From an uncultured Flavonifractor sp. (lineage in GTDB: Bacteria; Bacillota; Clostridia; Oscillospirales; Oscillospiraceae): a stretch of DNA of 40,621 nucleotides. Numbering within the stretch: position 1 is the first letter of the stretch; every line of letters starts with the position of its first letter. Where the stretch lies: positions 1 to 40,621 of the forward strand of contig CALWXT010000011.1 of NCBI GenBank assembly GCA_944385575.1, read 5' to 3'. The notes beneath the pieces were generated by a model, which was not told the DNA's origin, made no database searches, and saw only the letters and a program-made list of their open reading frames with translations. The translations under genes were made by a program, and so were the position numbers. This document shows, piece by piece, positions 5,769-22,962 of this stretch.

Positions 5769-6235
5769 TCCCATTCTCCTTTCAGCAGATCCCGCAGCCT
5801 GTCCCGGGCCCGGGCCAGCCGGGAGCGGACGGTGCCCTCCCGCCAGCCGGTCATGGCGGCGATCTCGGCGGTCTGGTAGCCCTCATAATAGTAAAGATGG
5901 AGCACCGTCCGATCCTTGGGGGGCAGGGACTGAATGACCTCCATTAAAGCCTGCTCCTCGGGACCGGCAGCGGGGTAGCTGTCCAGCAGGGGAGCGGTGC
6001 GCCGGCGCCAGGGAGCGCGCAGGCGGCTCTTGCAGCCGTTGACGGCCACCTTCAGCAGCCAGGCCCGCTCGTGGGCGGGGCTTTCAAAGATGGGGGCCTT
6101 TTCCCACAGGCGCAGGAAGGTGTCCTGCACCACGTCCTCCGCCTCCTGGGGGTCCCCCAGAATGGCCAGAGCCGCGCGGTACAGGGTGTTTTCATAGGTG
6201 CGGATCACAGTTTCCAACCGGTTGGATTCCGTCAT
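5765..6235 (-). CDS. ECF-type RNA polymerase sigma factor
   Basis: 156-residue sigma-70 family protein of the extracytoplasmic function group. Region 2 is seen in YRAALAILGDPQEAEDVVQDTFLRLW, a pattern typical of ECF factors (split here only by reading: YRAALAIL, then DPQEAEDVVQDTF). Region 4 has LPPKDRTVLHLYY followed by the helix-turn-helix ending GTVRSRLARAR. The ATG at 6235 is chosen because GGAGGGAGGAAG lies directly upstream; the frame runs further but without a ribosome site. It is co-transcribed and translationally coupled with the membrane protein downstream. No convincing ECF-type AAC/CGT promoter is visible upstream, so autoregulation cannot be supported. Confidence 0.92.
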   Translation of the reverse strand: MTESNRLETVIRTYENTLYRAALAILGDPQEAEDVVQDTFLRLWEKAPIFESPAHERAWLLKVAVNGCKSRLRAPWRRRTAPLLDSYPAAGPEEQALMEVIQSLPPKDRTVLHLYYYEGYQTAEIAAMTGWREGTVRSRLARARDRLRDLLKGEWE

Positions 6236-6310
6236 CTTCCTCCCTCCTTCACCCTTAATACGCTCGAGCGGGCCGAAATGCTCCGCCAATACTGAAAAAT
6301 TGCGGGAAGA

Positions 6311-6339
6311 TTGCCACATAACCTCTGCCGTGGTAAAAT
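6311..6339 (+). promoter_or_regulatory. Aminopeptidase promoter
   Basis: TTGCCA (6311-6316), 17-base spacer, TAAAAT (6334-6339); AAAGGAG and the ATG at 6369 follow. It lies in the divergent gap with the sigma gene. Confidence 0.7.
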
Positions 6340-7678: not shown

Positions 7679-7707
7679 TTGAAAAAAAGGGTATCTTGTG
7701 GTATTTT
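7679..7707 (+). promoter_or_regulatory. Promoter of the Dlt-like operon
   Basis: TTGAAA (7679-7684), 17-base spacer, TATTTT (7702-7707), about 37 bases before the first gene of the eight-gene operon. No other promoter-like sequence is evident before 20006, where gene gaps are short or absent. Confidence 0.65.
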
Positions 7708-7744: not shown

Positions 7745-10723
7745 ATGGGAAAGAACAAGAGCAGACGGATCGCAGCCGGAGTACTGGCGGTTCTCCTGGC
7801 GCTGACTGTCTCCGGCTGCCGTCAGGAGGGTGAGACCCCGGCGGGCGCGCCGGAAGAACTGAACTTCACCCAGGCGGCGGATCTCACCGCCGGAGTGCTC
7901 CACACCGGAAGCTCCGGAGGCTGGCAGGATACCCTGAGCCATCTGGAATACAGCTCCCTGGCCAACGTGAATGCTCAGGAGCTGAAGGTGGAGGACGACT
8001 TCTCCGGCTGCAACCTGGTGATCGCTGACCCTGCGCTGCTGGAGGAGGAAAACTGGGAGGAGATCCGGCAGAAGCTGATGGATTATGTGCAGGCCGGCGG
8101 CCTGCTGGTGCTGGACAACTGCTTCTGGGATCAGTTCCCGGCGGAATTTCTGGGTATCTCCGGCGGGACCGCGCTGAACGGCATGCCCGCAGAGCTGACC
8201 TGGCCGGAGGTGGAGGAGAACCTCTCCGGTTTCCAGGAACTGATCCAGGACTTCGCGTTCCTCTATCCCAGCTACCGGGATGCCGAGACTCTGGCGGGGA
8301 AGGATTACGGCTATGGCTTTACCGTTACCACCGCCCGGGCTATCGCCATGCAGGGGGAGCTGGCCTTGTATACCCTCAACGACGTGGGGGAGGGACAGGT
8401 CATGCTTACCAACCCCATGCTGCCCAACAGCTATACCATCAACGGCCCCAGCCTGACGGCCAGCGAGGAGGGGCAGGAGCCCTTTGCCAACACCACCAAC
8501 AGCGGCAACCGGCTGTTTTACGGAAAGCTGCTGTCCTATTGCTCCATGGAGGAGTACGGCTATGCCGTGGAGCGGGTATATGGGCCTTTCGGCACCAACC
8601 CCGCCGCCTGGGAACTCCACTACGAGGAGATCACCGCTATCCGGGAGAACTCCGCCAAGCAGTTTGCCGACCTGGCGGTTGCAGCAGGACAGATCCCGTC
8701 CTACACCCTGGTGCGGGGCGCCTACTGGTGGCTGCTGCGGGCCGAGAGCGTCACTTATCTGGTGAATCAGAGCGACAGCAGCCTGGACTATGAGCTGGAC
8801 GAGTACGAGGGAATTTACTCCTCCGGCACCCACGTGGTGTGCGACAACGACTGGCTCAGCCAGGTGTGGGTGGAGAACACCATCAGCTATTTCAGCGACG
8901 ACGGCGGCTATACCGAGCGGGCCTATCCCACCATCGGGGACGTGGACGGCGACGGGGCCGACGAGCTGCTGTGCGGCAGCGGCGACGGACAATTCTACTG
9001 CTATGAGATTCTGGACAACGACCAGCGCTTTACGGTGGACACGCCGGTGTTCCTCGCCAATGAGGCGGGGGAGAGCCTGACGGTGTCCGGCGGCCACTCC
9101 GCTCCCGCCATCCTGGATGTGGACGGGGACGGAATCCCCGACGTGGTCTCCGGGGCTGGGGACGGCAAGCTCTACTGGCTCCGGGGCCTGGGCGACCTCA
9201 CCTTTGCGGAGCCCCAGCTGTTGCTGGACCCCGGCATGGGAGCGGTACAGATCTTCCCGGCGGCCGCCGACATGGACGGCGACGGGGTCACCGACCTGCT
9301 GGTGGGCTCCGCCGGCGGCGGGCTGGCCCTCTACAAGGGCAAGTCCGGCGGCGGATTCGGCAGCAAGCAGGCCATTTCCCTGCCGGAGGAGATCTCTGAT
9401 TGGGCGGCGCCCTGCGCTGTGGATCTGAACGGGGACGGCACCCTGGATATCGCCCTGGGCACCTTCCACGGCTATGTGGCCAAGCTGGTGCGGCAGGGGG
9501 ACAGCTACACCTTTACCGGCTATTTTGAAGGCGGGGAGGAAAACTACAAGGGCAACACCCACCTGAAATTCGGCAACAACTGCAAGCCGGTATTCTATGA
9601 TGTCAACGGCGACGGGGCCCTGGACCTGATCTGCGGCCAGCTGGAGTACGGCCTGCCCTGTCCCATCGATTCGGAATACTTCCCCTTCCGGGAGGAGCTC
9701 CAGGAGCAGATCGACTGGATGCAGGAAAACAACTACTACCTGGGGCCCCACGCCCTCACCCACTGGTACGCCTCGGAGGGGTATGAGGAGCGGGAGTTTG
9801 AGCGCCACATGGAGGCTCTGGCTTCCTATGGCGTGGATCTGGACCGGGTAGGCACCAACCAGCACACCTGGCACACCAGCGTGTACGGCCCGGCCCAGAC
9901 CTTCCTGGCCCAGTACGACAACGATATTTTGTGGAACTCCGGCTCGGAGATGCCCTGCGCCTCCGCATCCCCCCAGACGGCGGCGGAAAATGTGCTATCT
10001 CTGCCCTTCTTCCTGGAGGAGGACGGGGAGCCCACCATGCTGATGCTCAACGCCTCCACCATCTACTACAAGGGGGAGGAGTGGAGCGACCTGTCCGCCA
10101 AATACGGCGTGCCGGTGTGCTTCTACTACCACTGCGACTGGATTTACAAGGATGACACCGAGGCAAAGAAGGTCATTCAGGCTATGTCCGATTTCCTGGA
10201 CAAGCACGGCTATACCTGTATTACCGAGGATCAGCTGGCCTGCGCCTCCGCCGCCGCCCTCAATACGGCGGTGACTGCGTCGATGGACGGGGAGAGCGGA
10301 GCCATCCGGCTGTCCGCGTCCACCCTGCGTACCGACCTGGCCCTGTACGATGAAAGCTATCAGAATTCCGTGGGCGTGAAGCTCACCTTCGGGGAGGGCC
10401 ATTCCGCCTCTGACTACGCCACCGACGCCACGGTGTGGCGGCAGGAGGGCAACAGCCTCTATCTGTCCCTGGACAAGGACGCCACTGTCTGGAAGGGACA
10501 GCGGGAGGGCACCTACCTGCGGCAGGTCAATCTGCCTGCAAGCCTGACCTGGGAGGGAGACACCCTGACCGTCGACTTTGCCGAGGGCGGCCTGATGGAA
10601 GTACAGGTGGAGGGCAGCGTGTCCACCCCCTCCGAGGGCTGGACCATGACCCGGGAAGGGGAGCGGACCACCCTGACCAAGCGGGGAGACGCCGACACCC
10701 TGGTGCTCCACTTTTGGGAGTAA
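7745..10723 (+). CDS. Secreted lipoprotein with five Ca-binding FG-GAP/VCBS-like repeats and a deacetylase-like C-terminal part
   Basis: 992-residue lipoprotein: basic N-terminus, hydrophobic core and lipobox LTVSGC with Cys25 as the lipidation site. Residues about 30-330 include a ThuA/glutaminase-like alpha/beta segment (LMDYVQAGGLLVLDN). The middle carries five DxDGDGxxD or DxNGDGxxD calcium loops beginning at Asp399, 458, 509, 560 and 619, spaced 51-59 residues, as in FG-GAP/VCBS beta-propeller blades. After residue 640 comes a segment with HALTH (His669, His673), reminiscent of the HxxxH metal pair of NodB-type polysaccharide deacetylases, and VCFYYHCDWIYKDD. The C-terminal 130 residues look beta-rich. 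It is first in the operon, 26 bases before the first ligase gene. A surface role in modifying or binding the polymer is inferred. The deacetylase call is tentative because a TFDDG motif is not seen. Confidence 0.75.
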   Translation: MGKNKSRRIAAGVLAVLLALTVSGCRQEGETPAGAPEELNFTQAADLTAGVLHTGSSGGWQDTLSHLEYSSLANVNAQELKVEDDFSGCNLVIADPALLEEENWEEIRQKLMDYVQAGGLLVLDNCFWDQFPAEFLGISGGTALNGMPAELTWPEVEENLSGFQELIQDFAFLYPSYRDAETLAGKDYGYGFTVTTARAIAMQGELALYTLNDVGEGQVMLTNPMLPNSYTINGPSLTASEEGQEPFANTTNSGNRLFYGKLLSYCSMEEYGYAVERVYGPFGTNPAAWELHYEEITAIRENSAKQFADLAVAAGQIPSYTLVRGAYWWLLRAESVTYLVNQSDSSLDYELDEYEGIYSSGTHVVCDNDWLSQVWVENTISYFSDDGGYTERAYPTIGDVDGDGADELLCGSGDGQFYCYEILDNDQRFTVDTPVFLANEAGESLTVSGGHSAPAILDVDGDGIPDVVSGAGDGKLYWLRGLGDLTFAEPQLLLDPGMGAVQIFPAAADMDGDGVTDLLVGSAGGGLALYKGKSGGGFGSKQAISLPEEISDWAAPCAVDLNGDGTLDIALGTFHGYVAKLVRQGDSYTFTGYFEGGEENYKGNTHLKFGNNCKPVFYDVNGDGALDLICGQLEYGLPCPIDSEYFPFREELQEQIDWMQENNYYLGPHALTHWYASEGYEEREFERHMEALASYGVDLDRVGTNQHTWHTSVYGPAQTFLAQYDNDILWNSGSEMPCASASPQTAAENVLSLPFFLEEDGEPTMLMLNASTIYYKGEEWSDLSAKYGVPVCFYYHCDWIYKDDTEAKKVIQAMSDFLDKHGYTCITEDQLACASAAALNTAVTASMDGESGAIRLSASTLRTDLALYDESYQNSVGVKLTFGEGHSASDYATDATVWRQEGNSLYLSLDKDATVWKGQREGTYLRQVNLPASLTWEGDTLTVDFAEGGLMEVQVEGSVSTPSEGWTMTREGERTTLTKRGDADTLVLHFWE

Positions 10724-10749
10724 ACACAAGAAATAGAAGGTGCGAGAAT

Positions 10750-12267
10750 ATGAGTAATTCTGCCGTCCGCCTGCTGGAGCGCGCCGCGGCGCGCTGGCCG
10801 GAGCGGGTCTATGTAGAGGAAGAAGAAGGCAGCCTGACCTACGGCGGTATGCTGGGACGGGCGCGGGCCATCGGCACCGCCCTGCTGGGTGACCGGCGGC
10901 CGGTGGTGGTCTATCTGCCCAAGAGCATCGACGCCCTGTCGGCGTTTTTCGGAGCCATGTGCGCCGGGCGGCCCTACGCCCCGGTGGACGCCCACATCCC
11001 CATGGCCCGGCTGGAGAAGATCGTGGAGAGCCTCCGCCCGGCCTATGTGGTCACCAACGAGGCCCTGCTGCCCAATCTGGAGGGGGTACAGCTGGGAGAC
11101 ACCAAGGCGGTGCTGCTGTCCCAGCTGGAGGGGACGGCGGTAAACGAAGAAGCGGTGGAGGAGGCTATCTCCGCCGTCATCGACACCGATCCCATCTATG
11201 TGATGTACACCTCCGGCTCCACCGGCACTCCTAAGGGCGTGACCATCCCTCACCGGGGCATCCTGGACTACGCCGACTGGGTGGTGGACACATTCGCCTT
11301 TGACGAGACCACCGTCATGGCCAACCAGGCCCCCTTCTACTTCGACAACTCCACCTTCGATATCTACGGTACCCTGCGGTGCGGCGGCAAGCTGTTCCTC
11401 ACCCCGGAGAGCCTGTTCCTGTTCCCCTTGAAGCTGCCCGAGTATCTGGAGGCCCACCACATCACCTCCATCTTCTGGGTGCCCACGGTGATGATCAACG
11501 TGGCCAACGCCGGGGCTTTGGAGGGACACCCCCTGCCGGAGCTGAAAAACGTGGCCTTCTGCGGGGAGGTCATGCCCAACACCCAGCTGAACATCTGGCG
11601 GAAAGCCCTGCCCCACTGTGCCTACGCCAACCTGTACGGTCCCACCGAGATCACCGACGTGTGCTGTTACTACAAGGTGGACCGGCCCTTTGAAAACCAC
11701 GAGAGCCTGCCCATCGGCAAGGCCTGCGAGAACATGCGGGTGCACATCCTCACCGACGACGGCAAGGAGGCGGCGCCCGGGGAGACCGGGGAGCTGTGCG
11801 TGCTGGGCAGCGGTGTGGCCCTGGGCTACTGGAACAACCCCGAGCAGACCCAGAAAGCCTTCTGCCTCAATCCCCTCAGCCCTGCCTTCCCGGAGCGGAT
11901 GTACCGCACCGGCGACCTGGCCCAGTGGGGAGAAGATGGGCTCATCCGCTTCCTGGGTCGGAAGGACAGCCAGATCAAGCTGAAGGGCAACCGCATCGAG
12001 CTGGGGGAGATCGAATCGGCGGCCATGTGCGTCCCCGGCGTGGAGAACGCCTGCGCCATCTTTGACGCTCCGGCGGAGCGCATCGTCCTCTTTGTGGAGG
12101 GCGGACAGGGAATGAACCTGCGGCAGATGAACAAACAGCTCAAGGGGTACATCCCCCAGTACATGCTGCCGGGCAAGCTGGTGTGCATGGACAAGCTGCC
12201 CCACACCGCCAACGACAAGATTGACCGGGTGCGCCTGAAGGCCACCCTGGCAGAGGAGAATGTGTGA
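10750..12267 (+). CDS. DltA-like amino acid:carrier-protein ligase 1
   Basis: 505-residue adenylation enzyme that should form an aminoacyl-adenylate with ATP and load it onto a phosphopantetheinyl carrier. Core motifs: P-loop YTSGSTGTPKG, the amino-group-binding Asp199 in YFDNSTFDIYG, NLYGPTEIT, YRTGDLA, the hinge GRKDSQIKLKGNRIELGEIE and the catalytic Lys490 in NDKIDR. It is a free-standing domain of DltA size. Residue 271 in AFCGEVMP is Cys, the residue found in D-alanine-activating DltA at this point of the pocket, so D-alanine is a reasonable substrate guess. ATG 10750 follows AGAAGG. Its stop overlaps the next ligase start as TGATG, so the pair is translationally coupled. Confidence 0.9.
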   Translation: MSNSAVRLLERAAARWPERVYVEEEEGSLTYGGMLGRARAIGTALLGDRRPVVVYLPKSIDALSAFFGAMCAGRPYAPVDAHIPMARLEKIVESLRPAYVVTNEALLPNLEGVQLGDTKAVLLSQLEGTAVNEEAVEEAISAVIDTDPIYVMYTSGSTGTPKGVTIPHRGILDYADWVVDTFAFDETTVMANQAPFYFDNSTFDIYGTLRCGGKLFLTPESLFLFPLKLPEYLEAHHITSIFWVPTVMINVANAGALEGHPLPELKNVAFCGEVMPNTQLNIWRKALPHCAYANLYGPTEITDVCCYYKVDRPFENHESLPIGKACENMRVHILTDDGKEAAPGETGELCVLGSGVALGYWNNPEQTQKAFCLNPLSPAFPERMYRTGDLAQWGEDGLIRFLGRKDSQIKLKGNRIELGEIESAAMCVPGVENACAIFDAPAERIVLFVEGGQGMNLRQMNKQLKGYIPQYMLPGKLVCMDKLPHTANDKIDRVRLKATLAEENV

Positions 12268-13787
12268 TGCTGAATTCCGCGGCCAGATGGCTGGCAACCA
12301 CCGCCGCCCGCTTCCCGGAGCGGATAGGTGTGGAAGATGAATGGGGCACCATGACCTGGCGCGAGCTGGAGACTGCCGTGGAGCGTGTTTCCACCGCCAT
12401 GCTGGAGCTGGGAGTGGAACGGAACCAGCCGGTGCTGGTCTACCTGCCCAAGAGCCGGGAGAGCGTGGCTACCTTCCTGGCTGCCCTGTACGCCGGGTGC
12501 CCCTACGCCCCGGTGGATTACGCCATCCCCATGGAGCGGCTGGCCCGCACCCTGGAAAACCTGCGCCCCGCCCTGGTGGTCACCGATGAGGCGGGCATGG
12601 AAAAGCTGGGCGGGCTGGAGCTGGGGGAGAGCAAGGCTGTGCTCTACACCGATCTGGCCGCCAAAGGGGCCGACCATGAGCAGGTGATGGCTGCCCTGAA
12701 CGCCGTCATTGATACCGACCCTTGCTATGTTATGTATACTTCCGGTTCCACCGGCGTGCCCAAGGGAGTTACCGTGCCCCACCGTGGAGTATTGGAGTAC
12801 GCCCAGGCGGTGGTGGACACCTTCGGCCTTACCGAGGATTCGGTGATGGGCCTCCAGTCCGGGTTCCACTTCGACAACAGCGTGTTCGACATCTACGGCT
12901 GCCTGATGACCGGGGCCAAGCTGGTCATCATCCCGGAGATTCTGTTTATGTACCCCCACAAGCTGATGGACCTGATGGAGGAAAAGAAGGTCACCTGCGT
13001 GTTCTGGGTGCCTACGGTGATGATCTCGGTGGCCAACGCCGGTGCCCTGGAGGGCCGGGAGCTGCCCGACCTGAAGACCATCGTGTTTGCCGGGGAGGTC
13101 ATGCCCAATAAGCAGCTCAACGTCTGGCGGCGTGCCCTGCCCGGCCGGATGTACGTCAACCTGTACGGCCCCACCGAGATCACGGTGGACTGCACCTGCT
13201 ACATTGTGGACCGGGAATTTGACGACGCCGATCCCCTGCCCATCGGCAAGCCCTGGCGGGGTGCCCGGGTGCTGCTGCTGAAGGAGGACAACACCCCCGC
13301 CGCTGTGGGCGAGGAGGGGGAGATCTGCGTACTGGGCAGCGGTGTGGCCCTGGGCTACTGGAACGCCCCCGAGCAGACCGCCAAGGCCTTCGTGCGTAAT
13401 CCCTTGAACCCGGATTATCCGGAGATCATGTACCGAACCGGCGACCTGGGCAAGTGGGATCAGGAGGGCAACATCCTGTTCTGCGGGCGGCGGGATCACC
13501 AGTTCAAGCTGCGGGGCAACCGCATCGAGCTGGGGGACATCGAGACCGCCGCCGCCACCCTGGAGGGTGTGGACAAGGTGTGCGCCCTCTTTGATGAGGT
13601 CAACCAGGAGATCATCCTGGCGGTGGAGACCAAAGCGGCCCTCCAGCTGCGGAAGGTGAACCTGGCTCTGGGCAAGCTGATCCCCAAATACATGCTGCCC
13701 AAGCGGCTGGAGCTCTTTGAGGAGCTTCCCCTTACTCCCAACCGGAAGATCGACCGGGTGGGCTTGAAGAAACAGTTGATCGGTTAA
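12267..13787 (+). CDS. DltA-like amino acid:carrier-protein ligase 2
   Basis: 506-residue paralogue of the preceding enzyme with the full adenylation set: YTSGSTGVPKG, Asp203 in HFDNSVFDIYG, NLYGPTEIT, YRTGDLG, GRRDHQFKLRGNRIELGDIE and Lys494 in NRKIDR. The pocket position that is Cys271 in ligase 1 is Ala275 here (VFAGEVMP), so the two enzymes probably differ in amino acid or in stereochemistry. Start ATG 12267 is chosen with AGAGGAG 8 bases upstream; a GTG directly before it is possible. Short stretches are nearly identical in DNA to ligase 1 (for example 11800-11850 versus 13329-13379), suggesting tandem duplication. The following gene supplies the only carrier protein in the operon. Confidence 0.9.
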   Translation: MLNSAARWLATTAARFPERIGVEDEWGTMTWRELETAVERVSTAMLELGVERNQPVLVYLPKSRESVATFLAALYAGCPYAPVDYAIPMERLARTLENLRPALVVTDEAGMEKLGGLELGESKAVLYTDLAAKGADHEQVMAALNAVIDTDPCYVMYTSGSTGVPKGVTVPHRGVLEYAQAVVDTFGLTEDSVMGLQSGFHFDNSVFDIYGCLMTGAKLVIIPEILFMYPHKLMDLMEEKKVTCVFWVPTVMISVANAGALEGRELPDLKTIVFAGEVMPNKQLNVWRRALPGRMYVNLYGPTEITVDCTCYIVDREFDDADPLPIGKPWRGARVLLLKEDNTPAAVGEEGEICVLGSGVALGYWNAPEQTAKAFVRNPLNPDYPEIMYRTGDLGKWDQEGNILFCGRRDHQFKLRGNRIELGDIETAAATLEGVDKVCALFDEVNQEIILAVETKAALQLRKVNLALGKLIPKYMLPKRLELFEELPLTPNRKIDRVGLKKQLIG

Positions 13788-13812
13788 GATATCAGACAGG
13801 AGGACAAGACCA

Positions 13813-14061
13813 ATGAACGTAATGGAGCAGATCTGCGAGTTTGTGAAGGAACACTTTGAGATCGGGGACGACCCCGACTTCGGCCTGGACGTGAACCTGT
13901 TTGACGAGGGGTTCGTGGATTCCCTGGGCGCTACCGAGATCGTCCTTTATATCGAGGAGGCCTTCGGCGTGCAGATCACCCAGAAGGATATCATCCTCTA
14001 TCCCATGAACACCGTCCGGGAGATCGCCCAGGTGGTGGAGCGGAAGCTGGGGGAGCAGTAA
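13813..14061 (+). CDS. Acyl/aminoacyl carrier protein, DltC-like
   Basis: 82-residue acidic four-helix carrier protein. Ser37 in FVDSLGATEI is the predicted phosphopantetheine attachment site. The length and the NLFDEGFVDS lead-in resemble DltC and stand-alone ACPs. Start ATG 13813 with AGGAGG at 13798-13803. It lies between two ligases and the MBOAT gene, so it should accept aminoacyl groups from one or both ligases and present them to the membrane acyltransferase at the inner face of the membrane. No phosphopantetheinyl transferase gene is in the window; a housekeeping enzyme would be needed. Confidence 0.9.
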   Translation: MNVMEQICEFVKEHFEIGDDPDFGLDVNLFDEGFVDSLGATEIVLYIEEAFGVQITQKDIILYPMNTVREIAQVVERKLGEQ

Positions 14062-14067
14062 GGGTCC

Positions 14068-15222
14068 ATGTGGTATTTGCAAGTAGATACCCTGACTTTT
14101 ATCCTGGGCGCTACCCTGCTATACGGAGTGTTGGCCGCCGTGGCGGGCCGGATTTGGCCCAACCGGCGGCTGACGCCCTTTCTGCTGGTTTTTGACCTGG
14201 GGCTGCTGCTCTATGTGTCCAGAGAGCTGACCGCCTTCTACGTGGTCTACACCCTGGTCACCTATGCCATGCTGCGGGTGCTGAAGGCGGCAAAGGGCGA
14301 GGGGCTCCGGCGGGGACTGTTCGTGGTCTTCTGCCTGCTGTGCGCTTCCCCCTTCCTCTACGCCCGGTTCGCCCTGCTGCTGCCGGTGCTGCCGGCCATC
14401 TTCACCTTGGTGGGCTTTGCCTATAATATGCTCAAGGCCATTGATGCGGTGTTTTATGTCTACTATGCCGACAAGGATATCCCCCTCATCGCCTACGCCA
14501 ATTTCCTGCTGTTTTTCCCGGTGATGACCTCGGGACCCATCCTGCGCTACCGGGACTTTGAGCAGTATTATCTCAAGCCCCGGCCGGTGACGGCGCCTGT
14601 GGCTACAGCGGCGGTCAAGCGGTTCATCTGGGGCATGTTTCAAAAGATGGTGCTGGTGGCGCTGCTCAGCCAGGTGCTCACCCGGCTGCTGGAGGCCCGG
14701 CTGTGCCTGCCGGTGAGCCTGGGGCTTATCGTGGTGTGCTACGCATCCCTGTTCTTCGACCTGTCGGGTTACAGTGATATCGCCATCTCGGTGGCCGCCT
14801 TTACCGGCTTCGTGGTGCCGGAGAACTTCAAGAACCCCCTCTCCGCCGCCAGCTTCACCCAGTTCTGGCGGAAGTGGCACGTCACCCTCAGCGACTGGAT
14901 CCGGGAGCACATCTTCGTGGTGGTCAACGGCAAGCGGCTGAGCAAGTGGATGGGGGCTGCCATCGGCATGGGCACCATGGTGGTCATGAGCCTGTGGCAT
15001 GAGTTCAGCATCGGCTCCATCCTCAACGGCGTGTACATGGGCTCCTTCCTGGCCATCGAGAATCTGTTCGGCCTGTCCACCGTGGACAAGCGGCGCACCT
15101 CCAAGTGGATCTTCTGGGGCCGCTGCCTGCTGGTCAGCTTCTTCTTCGGAATCAACGCGCTGTCCTTCTATATGGACGCCGGGCAGCTCTTTGAGGTGCT
15201 GAAAGGACTGGTGCGCCTATGA
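14068..15222 (+). CDS. DltB-like MBOAT acyltransferase
   Basis: 384-residue polytopic membrane protein of the membrane-bound O-acyltransferase family, with roughly ten hydrophobic segments. It has the FFPVMTSGPILRYRDF signature, the QFWRKWHVTLSDWIREHIF block with His271, and the catalytic His311 in MSLWHEFS (usually WHG in DltB and AlgI). In the Dlt pathway this protein takes the aminoacyl group from the carrier and moves it across the membrane. The start ATG 14068 is only 6 bases after the carrier stop; its stop overlaps the next gene as ATGA. There is no DltX-like small membrane protein gene nearby. AlgI-type acetylation is the alternative family role, but the carrier and ligases favour aminoacylation. 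Confidence 0.9.
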   Translation: MWYLQVDTLTFILGATLLYGVLAAVAGRIWPNRRLTPFLLVFDLGLLLYVSRELTAFYVVYTLVTYAMLRVLKAAKGEGLRRGLFVVFCLLCASPFLYARFALLLPVLPAIFTLVGFAYNMLKAIDAVFYVYYADKDIPLIAYANFLLFFPVMTSGPILRYRDFEQYYLKPRPVTAPVATAAVKRFIWGMFQKMVLVALLSQVLTRLLEARLCLPVSLGLIVVCYASLFFDLSGYSDIAISVAAFTGFVVPENFKNPLSAASFTQFWRKWHVTLSDWIREHIFVVVNGKRLSKWMGAAIGMGTMVVMSLWHEFSIGSILNGVYMGSFLAIENLFGLSTVDKRRTSKWIFWGRCLLVSFFFGINALSFYMDAGQLFEVLKGLVRL

Positions 15223-16112
15223 GATTTGTAAAAGCATTGGGGCGCTATGCCTTCCTGCTCCTGCTGGCGGCAGCCCTGCTGGCGGGGGATCTGATCCTCA
15301 CCAAAATCAACCCCGTGAAGGACATGACCTGCGTGTGGCGCAACGATTTCGAGCTCATTCAGGTGGCCAATCCGGACATGACCTTCGATAAGGTGTTTTA
15401 CGGCAGCAGCGCCGTCACCGCCTCCTACATCGAGGGGCGCAACGACACGGGCTATGCCAATCTGGGCATCGACTACGGCACGGTGAAAGATCTGTACGAG
15501 ATGCTGGAACAGGGCTGGGTGACCATCAACAGTGACCTGGTCATCGGTATGAACGAGATCTTTTTCCTGGACACCCTGCCCACCAACGAGACCTATCCCT
15601 GGCATCGGGAGTGGTATGAGCCCTATGTCTACTTTCACCGGGACCGGCTCAACCGGCTCATTACCCTGGGGCTGGACAGCATGATGGACGGCGGTTCCTT
15701 CTTCTACGCCGACACATCGACCCAGCAGCGGACGGTGTACCGGGGTGCTCTCTCCGATGAGGACCTGCAAAAGAGTATCGACAGCATGGTGGAGCGGTTC
15801 GGCAACGTGACCCTGGACGACTGCAAGGAGAACTTTGCCGCCCTGGAGCAGCTGGTCGCCTACTGCGAGGAGCACGGCATCCGCCTGCGGGGGGTGTGGA
15901 TGCCCTGGAACGAGAAAATGGAGATCTATCCTGCGGCTCAGGCCATCATGGATCACGCCGACGAAATGCTGGCGGAGATGGGGATAGAAGTGCTGGATCT
16001 GACCCGGGCGGTGCCGGTGCAGTATTTCCATGACACCGGGCACCTGGACTACGACACCGGGGCGCCCTGGTTTACCGACTTTATCGACCCCTGGCTGGCG
16101 GAGGAGGGCTGA
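15219..16112 (+). CDS. DltD-like membrane-anchored SGNH protein
   Basis: 297-residue protein with one N-terminal membrane helix (residues about 9-28) and an extracellular domain. The nucleophile block reads FYGSSAVTAS with Ser64 as candidate catalytic serine, and the C-terminal DxxH dyad is Asp272/His275 in HDTGHLD, matching SGNH/DltD enzymes. DltD-type proteins act outside the membrane to hand the acyl or aminoacyl group to the polymer. The start overlaps the MBOAT stop (ATGA) with AAAGGA upstream. It is shorter than typical DltD (about 400 aa), so it may be closer to the AlgX/AlgJ-like partners of MBOAT proteins. The coupled MBOAT plus SGNH pair is typical of extracellular polymer acylation systems. 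Confidence 0.8.
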   Translation: MRFVKALGRYAFLLLLAAALLAGDLILTKINPVKDMTCVWRNDFELIQVANPDMTFDKVFYGSSAVTASYIEGRNDTGYANLGIDYGTVKDLYEMLEQGWVTINSDLVIGMNEIFFLDTLPTNETYPWHREWYEPYVYFHRDRLNRLITLGLDSMMDGGSFFYADTSTQQRTVYRGALSDEDLQKSIDSMVERFGNVTLDDCKENFAALEQLVAYCEEHGIRLRGVWMPWNEKMEIYPAAQAIMDHADEMLAEMGIEVLDLTRAVPVQYFHDTGHLDYDTGAPWFTDFIDPWLAEEG

Positions 16113-16113
16113 C

Positions 16114-17547
16114 ATGGAGGAACACAAGAGACTGGCCCTGCCGGAGGGGGAACAGAGCCTGCGGCGGGAGCTGAGTGAGCCCGCCCACAAGCTGGGACTG
16201 CTCCTGCTGTTGCCTGCCGCCGCTCTGCTGGCGCTGGCGGCGGCGTCCATCGCCCGGGAGGCGGGCGCCATCCAGCCGGTGTACACCGTGGCCGCTCTGG
16301 GCGGGCTGTTCTGCCTCATCCTGCTGGCCCGGCTGCTGGCGGCGGGGGAGGAAAAAGCCTGGCTGGTGCTGCTGTTTATCGGGGCTGTCGGCCTGCGGGT
16401 GGCTTTTGCCCTGAAATGGACGGTATATCCCCATGGGGACTATCTGACCGGATGGAATCTGGCCCTGGAGCTGTCCCGGGCCGGGATCGGCGAGTGGGGT
16501 ACGCTGATTCACAACGCCGGAATGTCCGGCGGTACCCTGTTTGCCCTGTATCAGAGCCTGATGATCCGGCTGTTCGGGCCCACCCTGGCGGCGGTACAGC
16601 TGCCTAACGCGGTATGGGGAGGCGTGAGCTGCCTGCTTACCGCCCTGATCGGCGAAAAGCTGTCCGGCTCCCGGCTTACCGGGGTGATCGCGGGAGGCAT
16701 CCTGGCCTTCTGCCCCACCCTGCTCTTTGCCGCCGGAGTGCTTACCTCCATGCCGCTGTACACCGCCCTGCTGCTGGCGGGGGTGTGGCTGCTGGTGTGC
16801 CGCCCCTTTGGCAGAACGCTGCTGAACTACGGCCTGGCTGGTGTGGCCTGGGTGCTCTGCCTGGTGCTGGAGCCCGGATTGCCCGTCCCTCTGCTGGGAA
16901 CGGTCGCATGGTTCCTCTTTACCCTGCCGGGGCGGAAGCGGGACGGAAGCCTGTGGAAGCGGGCGGCCGTTTTGACGCTCATCCTTCTGGCGGCCTGGCT
17001 GGCGGCGGGAGGCACCGATGTTGCGGGCGAGCTCTCCCTCCGGGCCATGGCGGAGCGGGTACGGCTGCAATTTGCGTCCTACGATTACAGCTGGGCCCGG
17101 GTGGATGGCGGAGGCCCCACCCGCAACAAGATCATTGCCACGGTGATGCATCCCTTCCTGCAAAGCTATATGCTGGGCGTCCTGCTGCTGGCCCTGTGGG
17201 GCATGCTGGCCAGGGTGAAATCGGTCAGCCGGAGCGCCCTGCTGTCCTGCGGCCTGCTGCTGGCGGGTGTGGCGGCGGCCATGGCACTGGGGGCCGACCC
17301 GGTGCACAATGGCTGGGCCATCCCGGTGTTCGCCCTGTGGGGTGCGGCTCCCGCCAGACAGCTGGCGGACTGGACGGTGCTGATGGCGGCGCCGGAGGGC
17401 GGAAAGGGCCGGAAGAAAGCCCCGCCCCTGCCTGTGCCCCTGCGGGTGGTAAAGCTGGTGGTGAGCGTGGTGGTATACGCCGCCATGGCGGCCCTGGTGC
17501 TGATCTTCTTCACCGGAAACGGCGTATTTGTCTATGAGGCATTTTGA
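16114..17547 (+). CDS. Polytopic membrane protein, probable GT-C glycosyltransferase
   Basis: 477-residue integral membrane protein with about eleven hydrophobic segments. The layout, with a first loop carrying an acidic motif (YPHGDYLTGWNLA) followed by alternating helices, resembles GT-C enzymes of the PMT/ArnT/GT39 group, which use polyprenyl-phosphate sugars at the outer face of the membrane. The Asp in HGDY would be the candidate catalytic acidic residue. It starts one base after the DltD-like stop, with GGAGGAGGG inside the end of that gene. A role in adding sugar to a lipid-linked or surface polymer fits the neighbours, but the family call rests on topology and one motif, so donor and acceptor are unknown. 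Confidence 0.65.
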   Translation: MEEHKRLALPEGEQSLRRELSEPAHKLGLLLLLPAAALLALAAASIAREAGAIQPVYTVAALGGLFCLILLARLLAAGEEKAWLVLLFIGAVGLRVAFALKWTVYPHGDYLTGWNLALELSRAGIGEWGTLIHNAGMSGGTLFALYQSLMIRLFGPTLAAVQLPNAVWGGVSCLLTALIGEKLSGSRLTGVIAGGILAFCPTLLFAAGVLTSMPLYTALLLAGVWLLVCRPFGRTLLNYGLAGVAWVLCLVLEPGLPVPLLGTVAWFLFTLPGRKRDGSLWKRAAVLTLILLAAWLAAGGTDVAGELSLRAMAERVRLQFASYDYSWARVDGGGPTRNKIIATVMHPFLQSYMLGVLLLALWGMLARVKSVSRSALLSCGLLLAGVAAAMALGADPVHNGWAIPVFALWGAAPARQLADWTVLMAAPEGGKGRKKAPPLPVPLRVVKLVVSVVVYAAMAALVLIFFTGNGVFVYEAF

Positions 17548-20006
17548 TGGAAAAATCTCGATTCAATGAAATCGGAAGCTACTATGTAATCTGGGCCGCC
17601 GCATTCCTGCTGTGGGAAGCGGCGGTCCAGCAGGCTGTGGTGGGTTCTTTCCGCTTCTGGCCGGCGGCGGGCTTCTGCCTGGCTGCCGCCGCCCTGGGCA
17701 CCGCAGCCTGCGGCCTGCCGGGCCGGATAGGCGGCAAGGTGGGAGCGGTGCTGTTCCCGCTGGCCTACGCGTTTTATGGCACCCAGCTGGTCTACGCGGA
17801 TATTTTCGGCTCTTACCTGTCCCTGGCATACACCGCCATGGGCGGCGAGGCGGTGACGGCCTTCTGGTCCATCGCGGCGGCGGCTATCGGACGCTGCCTG
17901 CCCAGGCTGCTGGTGATGGCCCTGCCCATGGCGGCCTTTTATGTACTGCGCCGGAAAAAGTGGTTGCCCATAGCCGGGCGGCCCTGGCGGGAGCAGGTGG
18001 CTTTGGCGGGGACGGCGGTTGTTGTCCCGGCGGTGCTGATCCTGACGCTGCCCCTGATGGGAACGGGAGCGGGAACGCCTGCCGGGGTATTTGACAGCGC
18101 GTCGGCCACCATTGACCGGCGGGCGGAGCAGCTGGGCCTGATGACGGCGGCTCTTCTGGATGCCAAGCAGACCCTGCTGGGCAGCGGCGGCGTCCGGGTG
18201 TCCGGCGGTCTGGATCTTACCGCCGGGGGCCGTGGCCCGAGAAATGTACTGGACGGAATGGATTTTGACAGGCTGGATGAGGCCACGGAGGACCAGGATC
18301 TGCGCAGCCTGAACGACTACTTCGCGTCCCTTCAGGGCACGGTGAAGAACAGCTATACCGGGCTGTTTGCCGATTACAACCTGATCGTCATCTGCGCGGA
18401 GGCCTTTTCCCCCTATCTGATCGACCCGGAGCTGACACCGGCCCTTTACCGCATGTCCAACGAGGGGATCGTGTTCCGCAACTTCTACAACAGCTTCCCC
18501 AACCTGACCACCAACGGGGAGTACGGGCTGTGTATGGGGCTGATGCCCGATTTGAGCCGTATGAGCTTTGCGGTGTCCAAGAACAACTACCTGCCCTTCT
18601 GCCTGGGCAGCATGTTCAGCCAGGCCGGGGTGGAGGCAAGGGCCTATCACAACAACATCGGCACCTTCTATGACCGTGTGAACACCCACACCAACATGGG
18701 CTATACTTTCCAGGCCATCGACTTTGGCCTGGACATGGAGCCGGGAAATCCCACCTCCGATTTGGAGATGATGGAGAAGACGGTGGATGAATACCTGGAG
18801 CAGGAGCCCTTCCACGCCTACTATATGACCTATTCCGGACACGCCGACTACTCCTTTACCGACAACGACATGAGTGCCCGGAATCAGGAGCTGGTAGCCG
18901 ATATGGAGGGTTCCGAGGAGCTGCGGGCCTACTACGCCTGCCAGCTGGAACTGGAAAAAGCCGTGGAGTACCTGCTGGAACGGCTGGAGGAGGCGGGCGC
19001 TGCCGACCATACGGTGGTGGTGCTCACCGGTGACCACGCCCCCTACGGTCTGCCGGAGGAGGACTACGAGACCCTGGCCGGCGATGCGGTGGAGGAGCCC
19101 TTCTGGCAGTACCGCAACAGCTTTATCTGCTGGACGGGCGGGCTGGAGGAGCCCATTGTGGTGGATGACTACTGCTGCACCCAGGATATCCTGCCCACCC
19201 TGCTCAACCTGTTCGGCTTCAGCTATGATTCCCGGCTGCTGACCGGTCGGGATGTGCTGGCCGAGTGCACCCACGCGGCGCTGCTGAAGGACGGGAGCTT
19301 CCTCACGGACCGGATGATCTACGACGCCGCCAGCGGCCAGATCACCTGGCAGGGTGAGGAGGATGAAGATTACGCCCAGGAGCTGATTCAGGCCATGGAG
19401 GATCAACTCACAGTGTCAGCCGCCATTCTGGGCACCAACTACTATGAGTTTGCCTTCCGTACCCTGGGACTGTCCGCGGGGCAGACGGAGCGGGAGCACT
19501 ATGCCAGCTATGCCGACATTGAGGGAACCTGGTATGAGGATGCTGTGGAATACCTCACCTCCCTGGGCGCCCTCAGCGGCGGCGGCACCGGAGACTTTTT
19601 GGGAGACGCGGCGGCCAGCCGGGCGGCGGTGCTGGCCATGATTACCAGAGGTCTGGGTCTGGAGGCGGGAGAGGAGAGCCCGCCCTACACAGACCTGGAG
19701 GAGGGCCTGTGGTATGTGGAGACGGTGAGCGCCGCCTGGTCGGCGGGGCTGCTGCCCACGGATGAGGAGACCTTCCGGCCAGACGACCCCATTACCGGGG
19801 AGGAGGCGGAGGAGCTCTTTGCCGCTGTCGCCCGGTACCGGGGCATGGAGGACGGAGACACGCTGGCGGAGCAGGCGGTCTCTGAAGCCATGGACCGGCA
19901 GGCGGAGGAAGGAAGCGCCCTGGGAGAGGACAGCCTGTCCCGGGGAGCGGCGGCCTATGCCGCGGCAAACCTGCTGGCAGCGCTGGAGAGCGCCGGATCG
20001 GAATAA
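17547..20006 (+). CDS. LtaS-like polymer synthase with C-terminal SLH-like repeats
   Basis: 819 residues. About five N-terminal membrane helices are followed by an extracellular sulfatase-fold domain of the lipoteichoic acid synthase family: Glu285 in ICAEAFSP, nucleophile candidate Thr322 in LTTNGEY, His432 in YSGHADY and the metal pair Asp496-His497 in TGDHAPYG. These correspond to the Mn-binding and catalytic positions of LtaS, which adds glycerol-phosphate from phosphatidylglycerol. Beyond residue 650 come two SLH-like repeats (YADIEGTWYEDAVEYL from 655, and YTDLEEGLWYVETV from about 715, the latter followed by FRPDDPITGEEAEELF), which would bind cell wall polymer. ATG 17547 overlaps the previous stop (TGATG); GAGG is 7 bases upstream. 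This domain combination is unusual for LtaS. The last ~50 residues are acidic. Confidence 0.85.
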   Translation: MEKSRFNEIGSYYVIWAAAFLLWEAAVQQAVVGSFRFWPAAGFCLAAAALGTAACGLPGRIGGKVGAVLFPLAYAFYGTQLVYADIFGSYLSLAYTAMGGEAVTAFWSIAAAAIGRCLPRLLVMALPMAAFYVLRRKKWLPIAGRPWREQVALAGTAVVVPAVLILTLPLMGTGAGTPAGVFDSASATIDRRAEQLGLMTAALLDAKQTLLGSGGVRVSGGLDLTAGGRGPRNVLDGMDFDRLDEATEDQDLRSLNDYFASLQGTVKNSYTGLFADYNLIVICAEAFSPYLIDPELTPALYRMSNEGIVFRNFYNSFPNLTTNGEYGLCMGLMPDLSRMSFAVSKNNYLPFCLGSMFSQAGVEARAYHNNIGTFYDRVNTHTNMGYTFQAIDFGLDMEPGNPTSDLEMMEKTVDEYLEQEPFHAYYMTYSGHADYSFTDNDMSARNQELVADMEGSEELRAYYACQLELEKAVEYLLERLEEAGAADHTVVVLTGDHAPYGLPEEDYETLAGDAVEEPFWQYRNSFICWTGGLEEPIVVDDYCCTQDILPTLLNLFGFSYDSRLLTGRDVLAECTHAALLKDGSFLTDRMIYDAASGQITWQGEEDEDYAQELIQAMEDQLTVSAAILGTNYYEFAFRTLGLSAGQTEREHYASYADIEGTWYEDAVEYLTSLGALSGGGTGDFLGDAAASRAAVLAMITRGLGLEAGEESPPYTDLEEGLWYVETVSAAWSAGLLPTDEETFRPDDPITGEEAEELFAAVARYRGMEDGDTLAEQAVSEAMDRQAEEGSALGEDSLSRGAAAYAAANLLAALESAGSE

Positions 20007-20010
20007 AAGA

Positions 20011-20054
20011 AAAAAACAGGGCCTGCGGCATCCGGATGCCGCAGGCCCTGTTTT
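20011..20054. terminator. Strong bidirectional terminator ending the Dlt-like operon
   Basis: A perfect 16-bp stem (20016-20031 with 20036-20051) with a CCGG loop. TTTT follows on the plus strand and a longer T-rich run on the minus strand, so it serves both convergent genes. Confidence 0.92.
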
Positions 20055-20557
20055 CAATAGGGATAGGTGCGCCAGGTATTGGCGCCGGACAGATCGGTAA
20101 ACAGCAGCCCGGCAGGGGGGAGGAAGGTGAATACCATCAGGACCACCCCCAGGGCCAGGGCCAGCAGCACAAGAATACCCTGCCCCTTCTGCCAGATTTC
20201 GCCGTCCAGGAAGTAGGGCAGGAGCAGACAGACGGCCATGGAGAGAACATAGAGAATGATATCAAACAGCAGGCTCTCTCCGCCCAGAGGGATATGGTAC
20301 AGGTAGCCGATCACGAGCATGAGCGCTGTGCCCAGCAGCAGGGAGAAGGCCCGGGCGCCCAGCCGGTCTTTCAGCAGGAGGCCGGAGATCAGCGTGGGCC
20401 AGTAGAGCAGCTTGGCATGCTCCCAGAGACTTTCCGACACCGGGGCGAACAGGGCGGTGACGGGGCAGGGAAACAGGTCGTAGACAAAGTGCAGGCAGCT
20501 TCCCGCCACGACGGCGGCGGCAAAGGCGAGCAGGACGGAACGGGACAGGCGGGACAT
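20054..20557 (-). CDS. Small polytopic membrane protein of unknown function (DUF6512-like)
   Basis: 167-residue membrane protein with about five hydrophobic helices. The segment around residues 25-50, HFVYDLFPCPVTALFAPVSE then SLWEHAK (split here), resembles the pattern HxxYD..FAPVNES.WEH that I associate with the DUF6512 family of clostridial membrane proteins; that name is from memory. No function is known to me. The ATG at 20557 is preceded by AGGGGG. It is convergent with the Dlt-like operon and divergent from spoIVB, and nothing ties it to either. Confidence 0.7.
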   Translation of the reverse strand: MSRLSRSVLLAFAAAVVAGSCLHFVYDLFPCPVTALFAPVSESLWEHAKLLYWPTLISGLLLKDRLGARAFSLLLGTALMLVIGYLYHIPLGGESLLFDIILYVLSMAVCLLLPYFLDGEIWQKGQGILVLLALALGVVLMVFTFLPPAGLLFTDLSGANTWRTYPY

Positions 20558-20800
20558 GGCGACAACCCCCTTTTACTGTTCAGCACAGCCTATGCCCCCA
20601 AGAGCCGGAACATGCAAAAAATGCTGTAAGCGGAATAAAATACCGGCATAAAACGGTGAACGCCGCCGCCGTCTGGAATGGGAAAAGAAGCTAAGCCAAA
20701 GGTGCGTTTCATTGGCAGAAAAGGCGGGCCGACTTCCGGACATATTAAAATCAGCGTCGATAGACGCGAATTTGTGATGCGGAAAGGAGATGCCGGTACC

Positions 20801-21835
20801 ATGAAAGAGGAACAAAAGGCACGGCCGTGGATGGCCGCGGCCCTGGCGGCGGCGCTGATCTTCACCTCGCTGGCGCTGACCCAGCCCGCCAGAGCCGCGG
20901 AGTCGGTGCGCACGGTGATTCCTGTGGGCCGTGCCGTGGGAATCAAGATGTTTTCCGATGGTGTGATGGTGGTGGGGTTTTCCGAGGTGGCCTCTGACGA
21001 GGGGCGGTCCGTGCCCGCTCGTGACTGCGGCCTGAAAGAGGGAGATATCATCACCCACATCAATCGGGAAGAAGTGGACACCATTGAGGATGTGCAGCAT
21101 GTGCTCCAGGAGGTGGGCGGAGCGGCCATGAGCATCCGGGCCCTCCGGGAGGACGAGCCCGTCCAGTTTACCGCCCGCGCCGTCCAGTGCAGCAGCGACG
21201 GGCAGTATAAGCTGGGCGCCTGGATTCGGGATTCCATGGCGGGTATCGGGACCATCACCTACTGGGACCCCCAGTCGGGCGAGTTCGGCGCGCTGGGACA
21301 CGGGATCAATGATGTGGACACCGCCCAGCTGATGCCGCTGCAGTCCGGCTCCATCCTCTATTCCGATGTGGCTGATGTGAAGAAGGGCCAGAAGGGAGAG
21401 CCGGGTGAGCTGAAGGGGGTCTTCCAGATCGATCGGGATCTGGGCAGCCTGTACGCCAACACACCGGGCGGCGTATTCGGTACCCTGAGCGATAACAGCT
21501 TTTTCCAGGAAACAGAAGCGGTGGAGGTTGCCAGCCGGGACGAGGTGCACACCGGAAAGGCGGTAATCCGCTCCAACGTGGCGGGAGACGCCACCGAGGA
21601 ATATGAGGTGGAGATCATCCGTATTTTTCCCGAAAATCAGCAGGATACTCGCAACCTGATGCTGAAAGTGACAGACGCCCGGCTGCTGGAAACCACCGGC
21701 GGCATCGTACAGGGCATGAGCGGAAGCCCCATCCTGCAGGATGGAAAGCTGGTGGGCGCCGTGACCCACGTACTGGTCAATGATCCCACCCAGGGATATG
21801 GCATCCTGATTGAAAACATGATGGAGCGGGCCTAA
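20801..21835 (+). CDS. spoIVB: SpoIVB sporulation serine peptidase
   Basis: 344-residue S55 peptidase that in Bacillus is made in the forespore under sigma-G, crosses the inner forespore membrane and triggers pro-sigma-K processing in the mother cell. It has one N-terminal membrane segment, a PDZ domain (around GLKEGDIITHIN) and the S55 domain with RDSMAGIGTITYWDP, the catalytic His167 in GALGHGIND and the serine motif GMSGSP at 305-310, followed by GAVTHV. The start ATG 20801 has GGAAAGGAG 11 bases upstream; ATG 20777 in the same frame is possible. CATATTA at 20741-20747 matches a sigma-G type -10, but I see no good -35. It shows the organism is a spore former. Confidence 0.95.
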   Translation: MKEEQKARPWMAAALAAALIFTSLALTQPARAAESVRTVIPVGRAVGIKMFSDGVMVVGFSEVASDEGRSVPARDCGLKEGDIITHINREEVDTIEDVQHVLQEVGGAAMSIRALREDEPVQFTARAVQCSSDGQYKLGAWIRDSMAGIGTITYWDPQSGEFGALGHGINDVDTAQLMPLQSGSILYSDVADVKKGQKGEPGELKGVFQIDRDLGSLYANTPGGVFGTLSDNSFFQETEAVEVASRDEVHTGKAVIRSNVAGDATEEYEVEIIRIFPENQQDTRNLMLKVTDARLLETTGGIVQGMSGSPILQDGKLVGAVTHVLVNDPTQGYGILIENMMERA

Positions 21836-21836
21836 C

Positions 21837-21864
21837 AAAAAGGCGGGGAACTCCCCGCCTTTTT
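21837..21864 (+). terminator. spoIVB terminator
   Basis: AAAAAGGCGGGG with the matching CCCCGCCTTTTT around a short loop, starting two bases after the spoIVB stop. Confidence 0.92.
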
Positions 21865-21871
21865 GCCGCGC

Positions 21872-21900
21872 TTGACAGAGAGCCGGTTTTGTGGTAGCAT
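21872..21900 (+). promoter_or_regulatory. pnuC promoter
   Basis: Perfect TTGACA (21872-21877), 17-base spacer, TAGCAT (21895-21900). Predicted transcription start near 21907, leaving a leader of about 115 bases before pnuC. Confidence 0.85.
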
Positions 21901-21906
21901 TCCCTT

Positions 21907-22021
21907 TGCAATTTTTATATGGAACTGCCACCGGGTAGTATGATGCATGCGCATTTTGTTTACGGCGTTAGGTCTTGGAAGTCGTAAATAAGATGCGCTG
22001 TTTTTTTGAGGAGTTGAGGGT
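21907..22021 (+). promoter_or_regulatory. Structured pnuC leader, candidate riboswitch or attenuator
   Basis: The leader folds into a nested hairpin: outer stem GCGCAT (21949-21954) with ATGCGC (21993-21998) and inner stem TTTACGGC (21959-21966) with GTCGTAAA (21981-21988), one G-U pair, and a 14-base loop. Seven T follow at 22001-22007, then GAGGAG (22008-22013) and the GTG start at 22022. A stem followed by a U-run directly before the ribosome site has the look of a conditional terminator. pnuC genes are known to be controlled by NAD-type riboswitches in other Firmicutes, but I cannot match this sequence to a known class. Confidence 0.5.
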
Positions 22022-22726: not shown

Positions 22727-22812
22727 CTGGAAAATAAATCCTGGCACAAAAGAGAAAAAGAAGAGGAAAAAAATAAAAAACAGGGGGGATTTTCCCGTAT
22801 TTTTTCTGGTTG

Positions 22813-22829
22813 GGTCGAAGAAAGTCGAA
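22813..22829 (+). promoter_or_regulatory. Tandem 0A boxes upstream of spo0A
   Basis: GGTCGAA (22813-22819) and AGTCGAA (22823-22829), each 6 of 7 with the Spo0A box TGTCGAA, in the same orientation at a 10-bp repeat. Tandem 0A boxes at this period are the known binding mode of Spo0A dimers. They lie about 32 bases upstream of the -35 element. Confidence 0.65.
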
Positions 22830-22860
22830 CAGAAATAGCCATAAATTTCCAGTAAAACCC

Positions 22861-22889
22861 TTGCGCAGACTGTCTGATTATGGTAAATT
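22861..22889 (+). promoter_or_regulatory. spo0A promoter
   Basis: TTGCGC (22861-22866), 17-base spacer, TAAATT (22884-22889). The rest of the gap 22727-22860 is A-rich and holds only a weak GGGA/TCCC hairpin near 22785 and the 0A boxes. Confidence 0.6.
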
Positions 22890-22962
22890 ATAGATGACCG
22901 GTAAGAAGCCTTGGCCAGGCAGCAAACGCAGAGCAGGGTGACCTGCGGAAAGGGTGTCAAGA

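Follow-up and report, generated by a model that had tools for sequence, protein, structure and literature searches.

A Dlt-like operon of an uncultured Flavonifractor sp. with a predicted acyl-shuttle hexapeptide on a GT-C-like protein

The closest described relatives of the locus studied here are the Dlt system (DltA, DltC, DltB, DltX, and DltD) and PatA-PatB together with other hexapeptide MBOAT-SGNH acyltransferases. The available passages of PMC12148441 describe FXYXXF as an acyl-shuttle motif, located on DltX or at the C terminus of the MBOAT protein, whose tyrosine carries the acyl group from the MBOAT to the SGNH protein; in the PatA-PatB type, the motif is on the MBOAT protein and the donor is an acyl-CoA. 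In this study, we examined an eight-gene operon of an uncultured Flavonifractor sp. (assembly GCA_944385575.1, contig CALWXT010000011.1; genome 82% complete), located on a 40,621-nt stretch of DNA that was analyzed as a whole (here called the window). The operon shares with the Dlt system a predicted sequence of reactions, from ligase to carrier, MBOAT protein, FxYxxF tyrosine shuttle, and SGNH-type transferase. It differs in that the core proteins score below the Dlt cut-offs, two ligases are encoded, the shuttle motif is fused to a GT-C-like protein of 477 amino acids (aa) (here named g7) instead of being located on a microprotein, and genes for an FG-GAP lipoprotein (g1) and an LtaS-type enzyme (g8) belong to the operon. 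MBOAT, SGNH, and a predicted tyrosine shuttle are also shared with the PatA-PatB type, whereas here a third protein bears the motif and a carrier protein would be the donor.

We propose that the operon encodes an MBOAT-SGNH acyl-shuttle system for aminoacylation of the cell envelope with the shuttle on g7, which we consider probable as far as sequences can tell. Ligases 1 and 2 would adenylate amino acids and load the carrier, and the MBOAT protein would move the aminoacyl group across the membrane onto Tyr474, within the C-terminal FVYEAF of g7. From Tyr474, the group would pass to the serine of the SGNH protein, which would esterify an extracellular polymer, in the clade of the window most likely the product of the adjoining LtaS-type enzyme. 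The GT-C part of g7 would probably glycosylate the same polymer and, since it carries the tail, the shuttle would sit on a glycosyltransferase. Perhaps the amino acid lands on the newly added sugar; D-alanine as cargo is not established. We hold more tentatively, at a little under an even chance, the joint proposal that a GT-C-borne shuttle tyrosine places glycosylation and aminoacylation in one complex and that the Paenibacillus counterpart is fed Gly or Ala by a seryl-tRNA synthetase (SerRS)-like amino acid:[carrier protein] (aa:CP) ligase without an adenylation enzyme of the nonribosomal peptide synthetase (NRPS) type.

The DltX-like tail of g7

The original prediction counted the lack of a DltX-like gene among the distinguishing features of the operon. 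This argument fails, because g7 ends in FVYEAF, which matches the FxYxxF acyl-shuttle hexapeptide of DltX; judged by this match, the shuttle hexapeptide is present as the C terminus of g7. All seven fused g7 copies (window, L037 [=L044], L038 [=L045], L046, L047, L048, and L050) end in F[VIL]YEAF, with F472, Y474, E475, A476, and F477 invariant. In unfused relatives, the counterpart of the tail is a free microprotein of 35 to 61 aa. A different genus (G022; L042/L074) encodes a free 47-aa microprotein ending in FTGNGQFIYEAF at the equivalent position, and L049 a free 61-aa form with a basic PPLPxPLR linker that resembles the linker of the g7 tail. In a tree of 81 MBOAT proteins, the seven fused loci form one clade (support 0.96), joined next by L049 (1.00) and then by L051 and L053 (0.995). 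The clade of fused loci and the free forms in its neighbors point to a single fusion that joined a GT-C gene to a dltX gene, and one such event would explain all fused copies.

Relatives of the operon were collected by an MBOAT-alignment scan of a named-genome collection (one genome per species, 84,980 species), and the best 80 of 134 relatives, 39 of the Clostridia group and 41 of the Paenibacillus group, were annotated with profiles from seven loci. A DltX-type open reading frame (ORF) was found in 77 of the 80 loci (76 by profile, plus L079), and a strict FxYxxF end in 73; in L072 and L082, two of the three loci without such an ORF, the contig ends at the MBOAT gene. In the background outside the 76 found by profile, 1 of 2742 ORFs of at least 100 aa ends in FxYxxF, which is the L079 DltX with an upstream start, and 2 of 13996 ORFs of at least 30 aa do so, L079 included. 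DltX ORFs of 284, 97, and 93 aa (L068, L055, and L065) were dismissed as artefacts of an upstream start, because the usual microprotein start lies inside them.

The GT-C-like nature of g7, claimed from the window alone, is supported through relatives, although the window protein itself has no Pfam match. The copy in L047 matches PMT_2 with an E value of 0.012, and a tail-less protein found by the g7 profile (L129; E value of 6e-14) reaches 28.4 bits for PMT_2, over the cut-off of 26.1. We therefore regard g7 as likely GT-C by descent and as a predicted glycosyltransferase. No sequence match to g7 was found in the PDB and none to the L048 copy among plasmids, and a scan of viral contigs for g7 gave 18 pattern matches with no relative among them. 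A basic loop followed by a hydrophobic segment before the tail makes a C terminus outside the cell likely, so that by this crude hydropathy and charge reading the tail end is probably extracytoplasmic. In the consulted parts of the open-access literature, which are not a full survey (PMC12148441, PMC11035591, PMC3783018, and PMC10241514), we found no description of a GT-C-borne shuttle, of a shuttle on a third protein that is neither microprotein nor MBOAT, or of a Paenibacillus cluster of this kind.

The wider cluster and its ligases

The annotated loci reveal a wider cluster of an FG-GAP protein, a ligase, a carrier, an MBOAT protein, an SGNH protein, and DltX, with at least three partner genes of the MBOAT gene in 79 of 80 loci (L120 has the MBOAT gene alone). 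The search across Clostridia that had been suggested as a check thus recovered the core cluster, and it also showed the operon as first described to be incomplete: g1 is a near-constant member, and the system spans Clostridia and Paenibacillus, in most loci with neither GT-C nor LtaS alongside. Clostridia-group loci have a ligase in 38 cases (two ligases in 17), a carrier in all 39, an SGNH gene in 37, and DltX in 36 by profile or 37 with L079. Paenibacillus-group loci have a carrier in 39 of 41 cases and SGNH and DltX in 40 each, and an adenylation ligase in none. Some missing genes are due to contig ends (e.g., L045, L071, L072, L082, and L108). An MBOAT protein at an E value of 1e-70 or better was found in 5 of 394 sampled genomes of the order (at most four candidates scored per genome), which indicates that the cluster is patchy.

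In the Paenibacillus-group locus L084, a protein of about 400 aa is encoded after the carrier, and homologues occur in 40 of the 41 loci of this group and in none of the 39 others. The L084 copy matches the aa:CP ligase Bll0957 (PDB 3mey) with an E value of 1e-26 and type-2 SerRS with 3e-20; Pfam tRNA-synt_2b gives 25.1 bits, under its cut-off of 29.3. Aligned Cys, Glu, and Cys motifs, which we take to be zinc ligands, are kept in 40, 40, and 38 of 40 copies. Since two unrelated ligase folds serve one MBOAT-SGNH-DltX set, the cargo would be an amino acid. This ligase swap is the best evidence for such a cargo, and it does not specify the amino acid used in the window. According to the available parts of PMC5370406, aa:CP ligases load Gly or Ala (D or L is not stated), and those of PMC9437257 give the biological role of the product as unknown. 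A general role of aa:CP ligases in MBOAT systems was considered and rejected: unlike the Paenibacillus cluster, five of five sampled plasmid neighborhoods (of 87 records) had no annotated MBOAT gene, in a gene table that is incomplete.

Pfam and NCBIfam profiles support the ligase, carrier, MBOAT, LtaS-SLH, and Ca-repeat lipoprotein identities originally assigned in the window, with both ligases over the TIGR01733 cut-off of 317.4 bits and the MBOAT protein over that of PF03062 (27 bits). The binding-pocket codes of the ligases were taken from motif anchors in GrsA numbering. Ligase 1 has the code DNFFACLDVK in nine of nine two-ligase loci of the clade in which this ligase is complete, and many single ligases of the cluster share the code. 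Ligase 2 has DNFFVALVDK in 9 of 10 orthologues and forms a separate clade. Two conserved pockets that differ suggest two cargoes or two roles for a single carrier. Neither code matched any assignable specificity code with confidence, and the best PDB relatives, NRPS adenylation domains with LgrA as best match, do not settle the substrate. The second ligase of L060 (at 8184) may take a different amino acid, given that its code, DSTKLGLDVK, is unlike those of the remaining second ligases in the cluster.

Catalytic residues are conserved throughout the cluster. The carrier D-S is kept in all 78 cluster carriers (69 DS[LIMV] and 9 DSF), the first MBOAT His in 80 of 80 proteins, and the second (WH[GE]) in 79; none of the 80 MBOAT proteins ends in a shuttle motif. 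The SGNH protein has a single N-terminal hydrophobic segment, and its G62, S64, D272, and H275 (G-x-S and DxxH) are present in 78 of 78 aligned sequences. The SGNH assignment of the original prediction thus holds by its motifs, although it is only weakly suggested by profiles, with no SGNH-type Pfam profile at cut-off.

The lipoprotein g1, with a lipobox identified by eye, consists of a middle integrin-like FG-GAP/Ca propeller flanked by unassigned N- and C-terminal domains; the PDB matches listed (60 of 88) lie in the propeller part. Of the Clostridia-group loci, 34 of 39 have a homologue, as do 39 of 41 in the Paenibacillus group; L060 has none within its stretch. All 27 aligned copies, which come from Clostridia and Paenibacillus, have H292, E294, H669, H707, H796, and E828, residues that lie outside the propeller or flank it; g1 may therefore be an enzyme. 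A NodB-like deacetylase, suspected by eye at the C terminus, found no support in profile searches.

Operon layout and neighboring genes

Re-reading of the coordinates confirmed eight genes on the + strand (7745-20006; Table 1), with the overlaps and gaps originally given: ligase 1/ligase 2 and g7/g8 overlap by TGATG and MBOAT/SGNH by ATGA, and the remaining gaps are 26, 25, 6, and 1 bases. The cluster is conserved in relatives. Purifying selection acts on six long reading frames in the comparison of L048 with L050 (dN/dS of 0.05 to 0.14; ligase 2 and carrier left out), and a close MBOAT protein (74 to 75% identity) occurs in 5 of 19 congeners. The operon is thus real and conserved beyond chance. 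Its predicted boundaries fared less well. Promoter sites of the kind proposed at 7679 were found three times in the 16 kb scanned, with 3.1 expected by chance, so this site is not evidence of a promoter. The proposed terminator at 20011 is a strong hairpin (-37.6 kcal/mol, z -6.0), but the T-run on the + strand is weak, and the terminator scan lists the hairpin for the - strand only.

Table 1. Features of the operon in the window
Feature	Coordinates	Strand	Basis
FG-GAP lipoprotein g1, 992 aa	7745..10723	+	Pfam FG-GAP
Ligase 1, amino-acid adenylation enzyme, predicted carrier loader	10750..12267	+	TIGR01733, 346.5 bits
Ligase 2, paralogue of ligase 1 with different binding-pocket code	12267..13787	+	TIGR01733, 367.7 bits
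Carrier protein, phosphopantetheine attachment Ser in DSLGA	13813..14061	+	PF00550, 40.5 bits
MBOAT acyltransferase, DltB-like, own shuttle motif absent	14068..15222	+	PF03062, 62.5 bits
SGNH/DltD-like membrane-anchored transferase	15219..16112	+	Conserved catalytic residues, N-terminal hydrophobic segment
g7, GT-C-like polytopic protein, 477 aa, DltX-like C-terminal segment	16114..17547	+	Profile matches of relatives
DltX-like tail of g7, 50 aa: basic linker, single transmembrane helix, FTGNGVFVYEAF	17395..17544	+	Aligned to free microproteins
Predicted acyl-shuttle hexapeptide FVYEAF (F472-x-Y474-x-x-F477)	17527..17544	+	Invariant positions in fused copies
g8, LtaS/LtaP-like phosphoglycerol-transferase-type enzyme, C-terminal SLH domains	17547..20006	+	Sulfatase + SLH
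Terminator-like hairpin between convergent g8 and DUF6512 gene	20012..20055		-37.6 kcal/mol

The window carrier, MBOAT, and SGNH genes (13813-16112) are 63 to 75% identical to those of L044, L046, L048, and L050, whereas its ligases are 84 to 93% identical to their relatives; between L044 and L048, carrier, MBOAT, and SGNH share 89 to 90%. The drop in identity after the ligases suggests recombination between ligase 2 and carrier. A GNAT acetyltransferase gene lies between ligase 2 and carrier in the first five congeneric relatives (L037 4188-4670 and equivalents) and is absent from this junction in the window (13787-13813). GNAT genes occur in 16 of 39 Clostridia-group loci at variable positions; perhaps the enzymes act on the carrier-bound amino acid.

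On the - strand at 4440-6319, a gene for an ECF-type sigma factor and an adjoining 444-aa possible anti-sigma gene lie directly upstream of an M18 peptidase gene, and three relatives (L039-L041) have such a pair close to the operon as well. Downstream of the operon, spoIVB and spo0A follow (20678-23718), in identical order in L040. A 1003-aa phosphodiester glycosidase (NAGPA) with three SLH domains, which possibly acts on wall polymer, is encoded 12 kb downstream (32394-35405). The same genome carries a second ligase-carrier-MBOAT set (L140; G000 contig C78, 3-3101, - strand), whose MBOAT gene is cut by the contig end.

The acceptor polymer and alternative explanations

Several points weigh against the proposed shuttle system. 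The chemistry is known for none of the cluster members. The lack of a Pfam match to the window g7 extends to the GT-C profiles, and the first loop has an acidic residue (D or E) in six g7 copies but A at that position in L047 (by eye). The Pfam DltX model misses the g7 tail and finds a free microprotein with an unconvincing E value of 0.036, and the final F of the motif is absent in four loci (L051, L053, L076, and L081). The MBOAT protein of L053 fails the second-His pattern, and the SGNH protein reaches 13.6 bits for DltD PF04914 (E value of 0.042), under the cut-off of 22.7. Furthermore, a same-strand LtaS gene adjoins the cluster in 5 of 39 Clostridia-group and 0 of 41 Paenibacillus-group loci, and none follows g7 in L047 or in L045, where 2.6 kb of contig remain.

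The LtaS-type enzyme had been taken as a polymer synthase built into the system. An adjoining LtaS-type synthase, which may make the acceptor, is supported in the clade of the window but not for most of the wider cluster. Pfam finds a sulfatase domain and two SLH repeats in g8. Its best PDB match is the lipoteichoic acid (LTA) primase LtaP (4uop; E value of 7e-16), the SLH part matches Sap, and the E, T, H, and DH residues for metal and substrate line up with LtaP by eye. Thus, g8 shares the sulfatase-fold catalytic domain of the LtaS/LtaP synthases, but it carries SLH domains and lies far under the LtaS equivalog NF053595 (80.8 versus 970 bits), the best PDB matches still being LtaP/LtaS. Two further LtaS-like proteins are encoded in the same genome. 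In the window and in L048, g7 and the LtaS gene overlap; in L044, L046, and L050, the LtaS gene comes immediately after g7; and in L053, a locus lacking a GT-C gene, it starts one base after the free DltX. Given this gene, a teichoic-type polymer appears to be the likeliest acceptor in the window clade only.

The tight placement of the LtaS gene in these loci also speaks against the explanation that comes closest to ours, in which the machinery works as described, g1 handles the acceptor, a glycan or secondary wall polymer, and LtaS is a mere neighbor. The rarity of LtaS beside the cluster, set against the near-constant g1, and the fused loci without LtaS behind g7 favor it and leave the acceptor not fixed; we regard this explanation as distinctly possible.

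An unlikely explanation is a divergent dlt operon with ordinary D-alanylation, LTA as acceptor, and a curious gene fusion. The enzyme logic would be the same, and DltA-type models still give about 300 bits. Searches of 60 relatives and of 18 cluster-bearing genomes gave no DltA above the curated cut-off, and the 82% complete genome of the window yielded neither a DltD match nor a DltA over cut-off; since canonical DltA and DltD were not found, the operon could be the dlt of the species. Yet all core proteins remain under cut-off: the ligases for the DltA equivalog TIGR01734 (300.3 and 278.2 versus 559.85 bits), the carrier for DltC (NF003464, 34.1 versus 68 bits; TIGR01688, 28.6 versus 52.35 bits), the MBOAT protein for DltB (TIGR04091, 150.4 versus 375 bits), and the SGNH protein for the Pfam model given above. 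Moreover, two ligases with differing conserved codes share one carrier, and the Paenibacillus ligase is SerRS-like, of a kind that loads Gly or Ala with D or L not stated in the available parts of PMC5370406. The originally claimed distinction of a Dlt-like surface aminoacylation from canonical dlt is supported by these scores and not by a missing DltX.

It is improbable that the g7 tail is DltX-like by descent and does not work, with a separate DltX elsewhere. The genome, in its 82% completeness, was not searched for a separate DltX, but between the window and L048 conservation is higher in the tail than in the remainder of g7 (88% versus 63% identity; dN/dS of 0.16 versus 0.45), and the displayed surroundings of the fused copies contain no further ORF that ends in the strict motif. 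A soluble NRPS-like natural product as the destination of what the ligases and carrier supply is very improbable. A profile search of the operon found neither a condensation nor a thioesterase gene, and MBOAT, SGNH, and DltX are regular partners. In its favor, the ligases have NRPS adenylation domains as their best solved relatives, and some aa:CP ligases elsewhere are located in NRPS-like clusters.

If the proposed aminoacylation by a g7-borne shuttle is true, the acyl-shuttle tyrosine would be a portable module, transferable to a glycosyltransferase, and would join two polymer decorations in one complex. The orphan aa:CP ligase family would gain a role in Paenibacillus, where it would supply the amino acid that charges the bacterial surface, and gut Clostridia and soil Paenibacillus would control their surface charge without a DltA over the curated cut-off.

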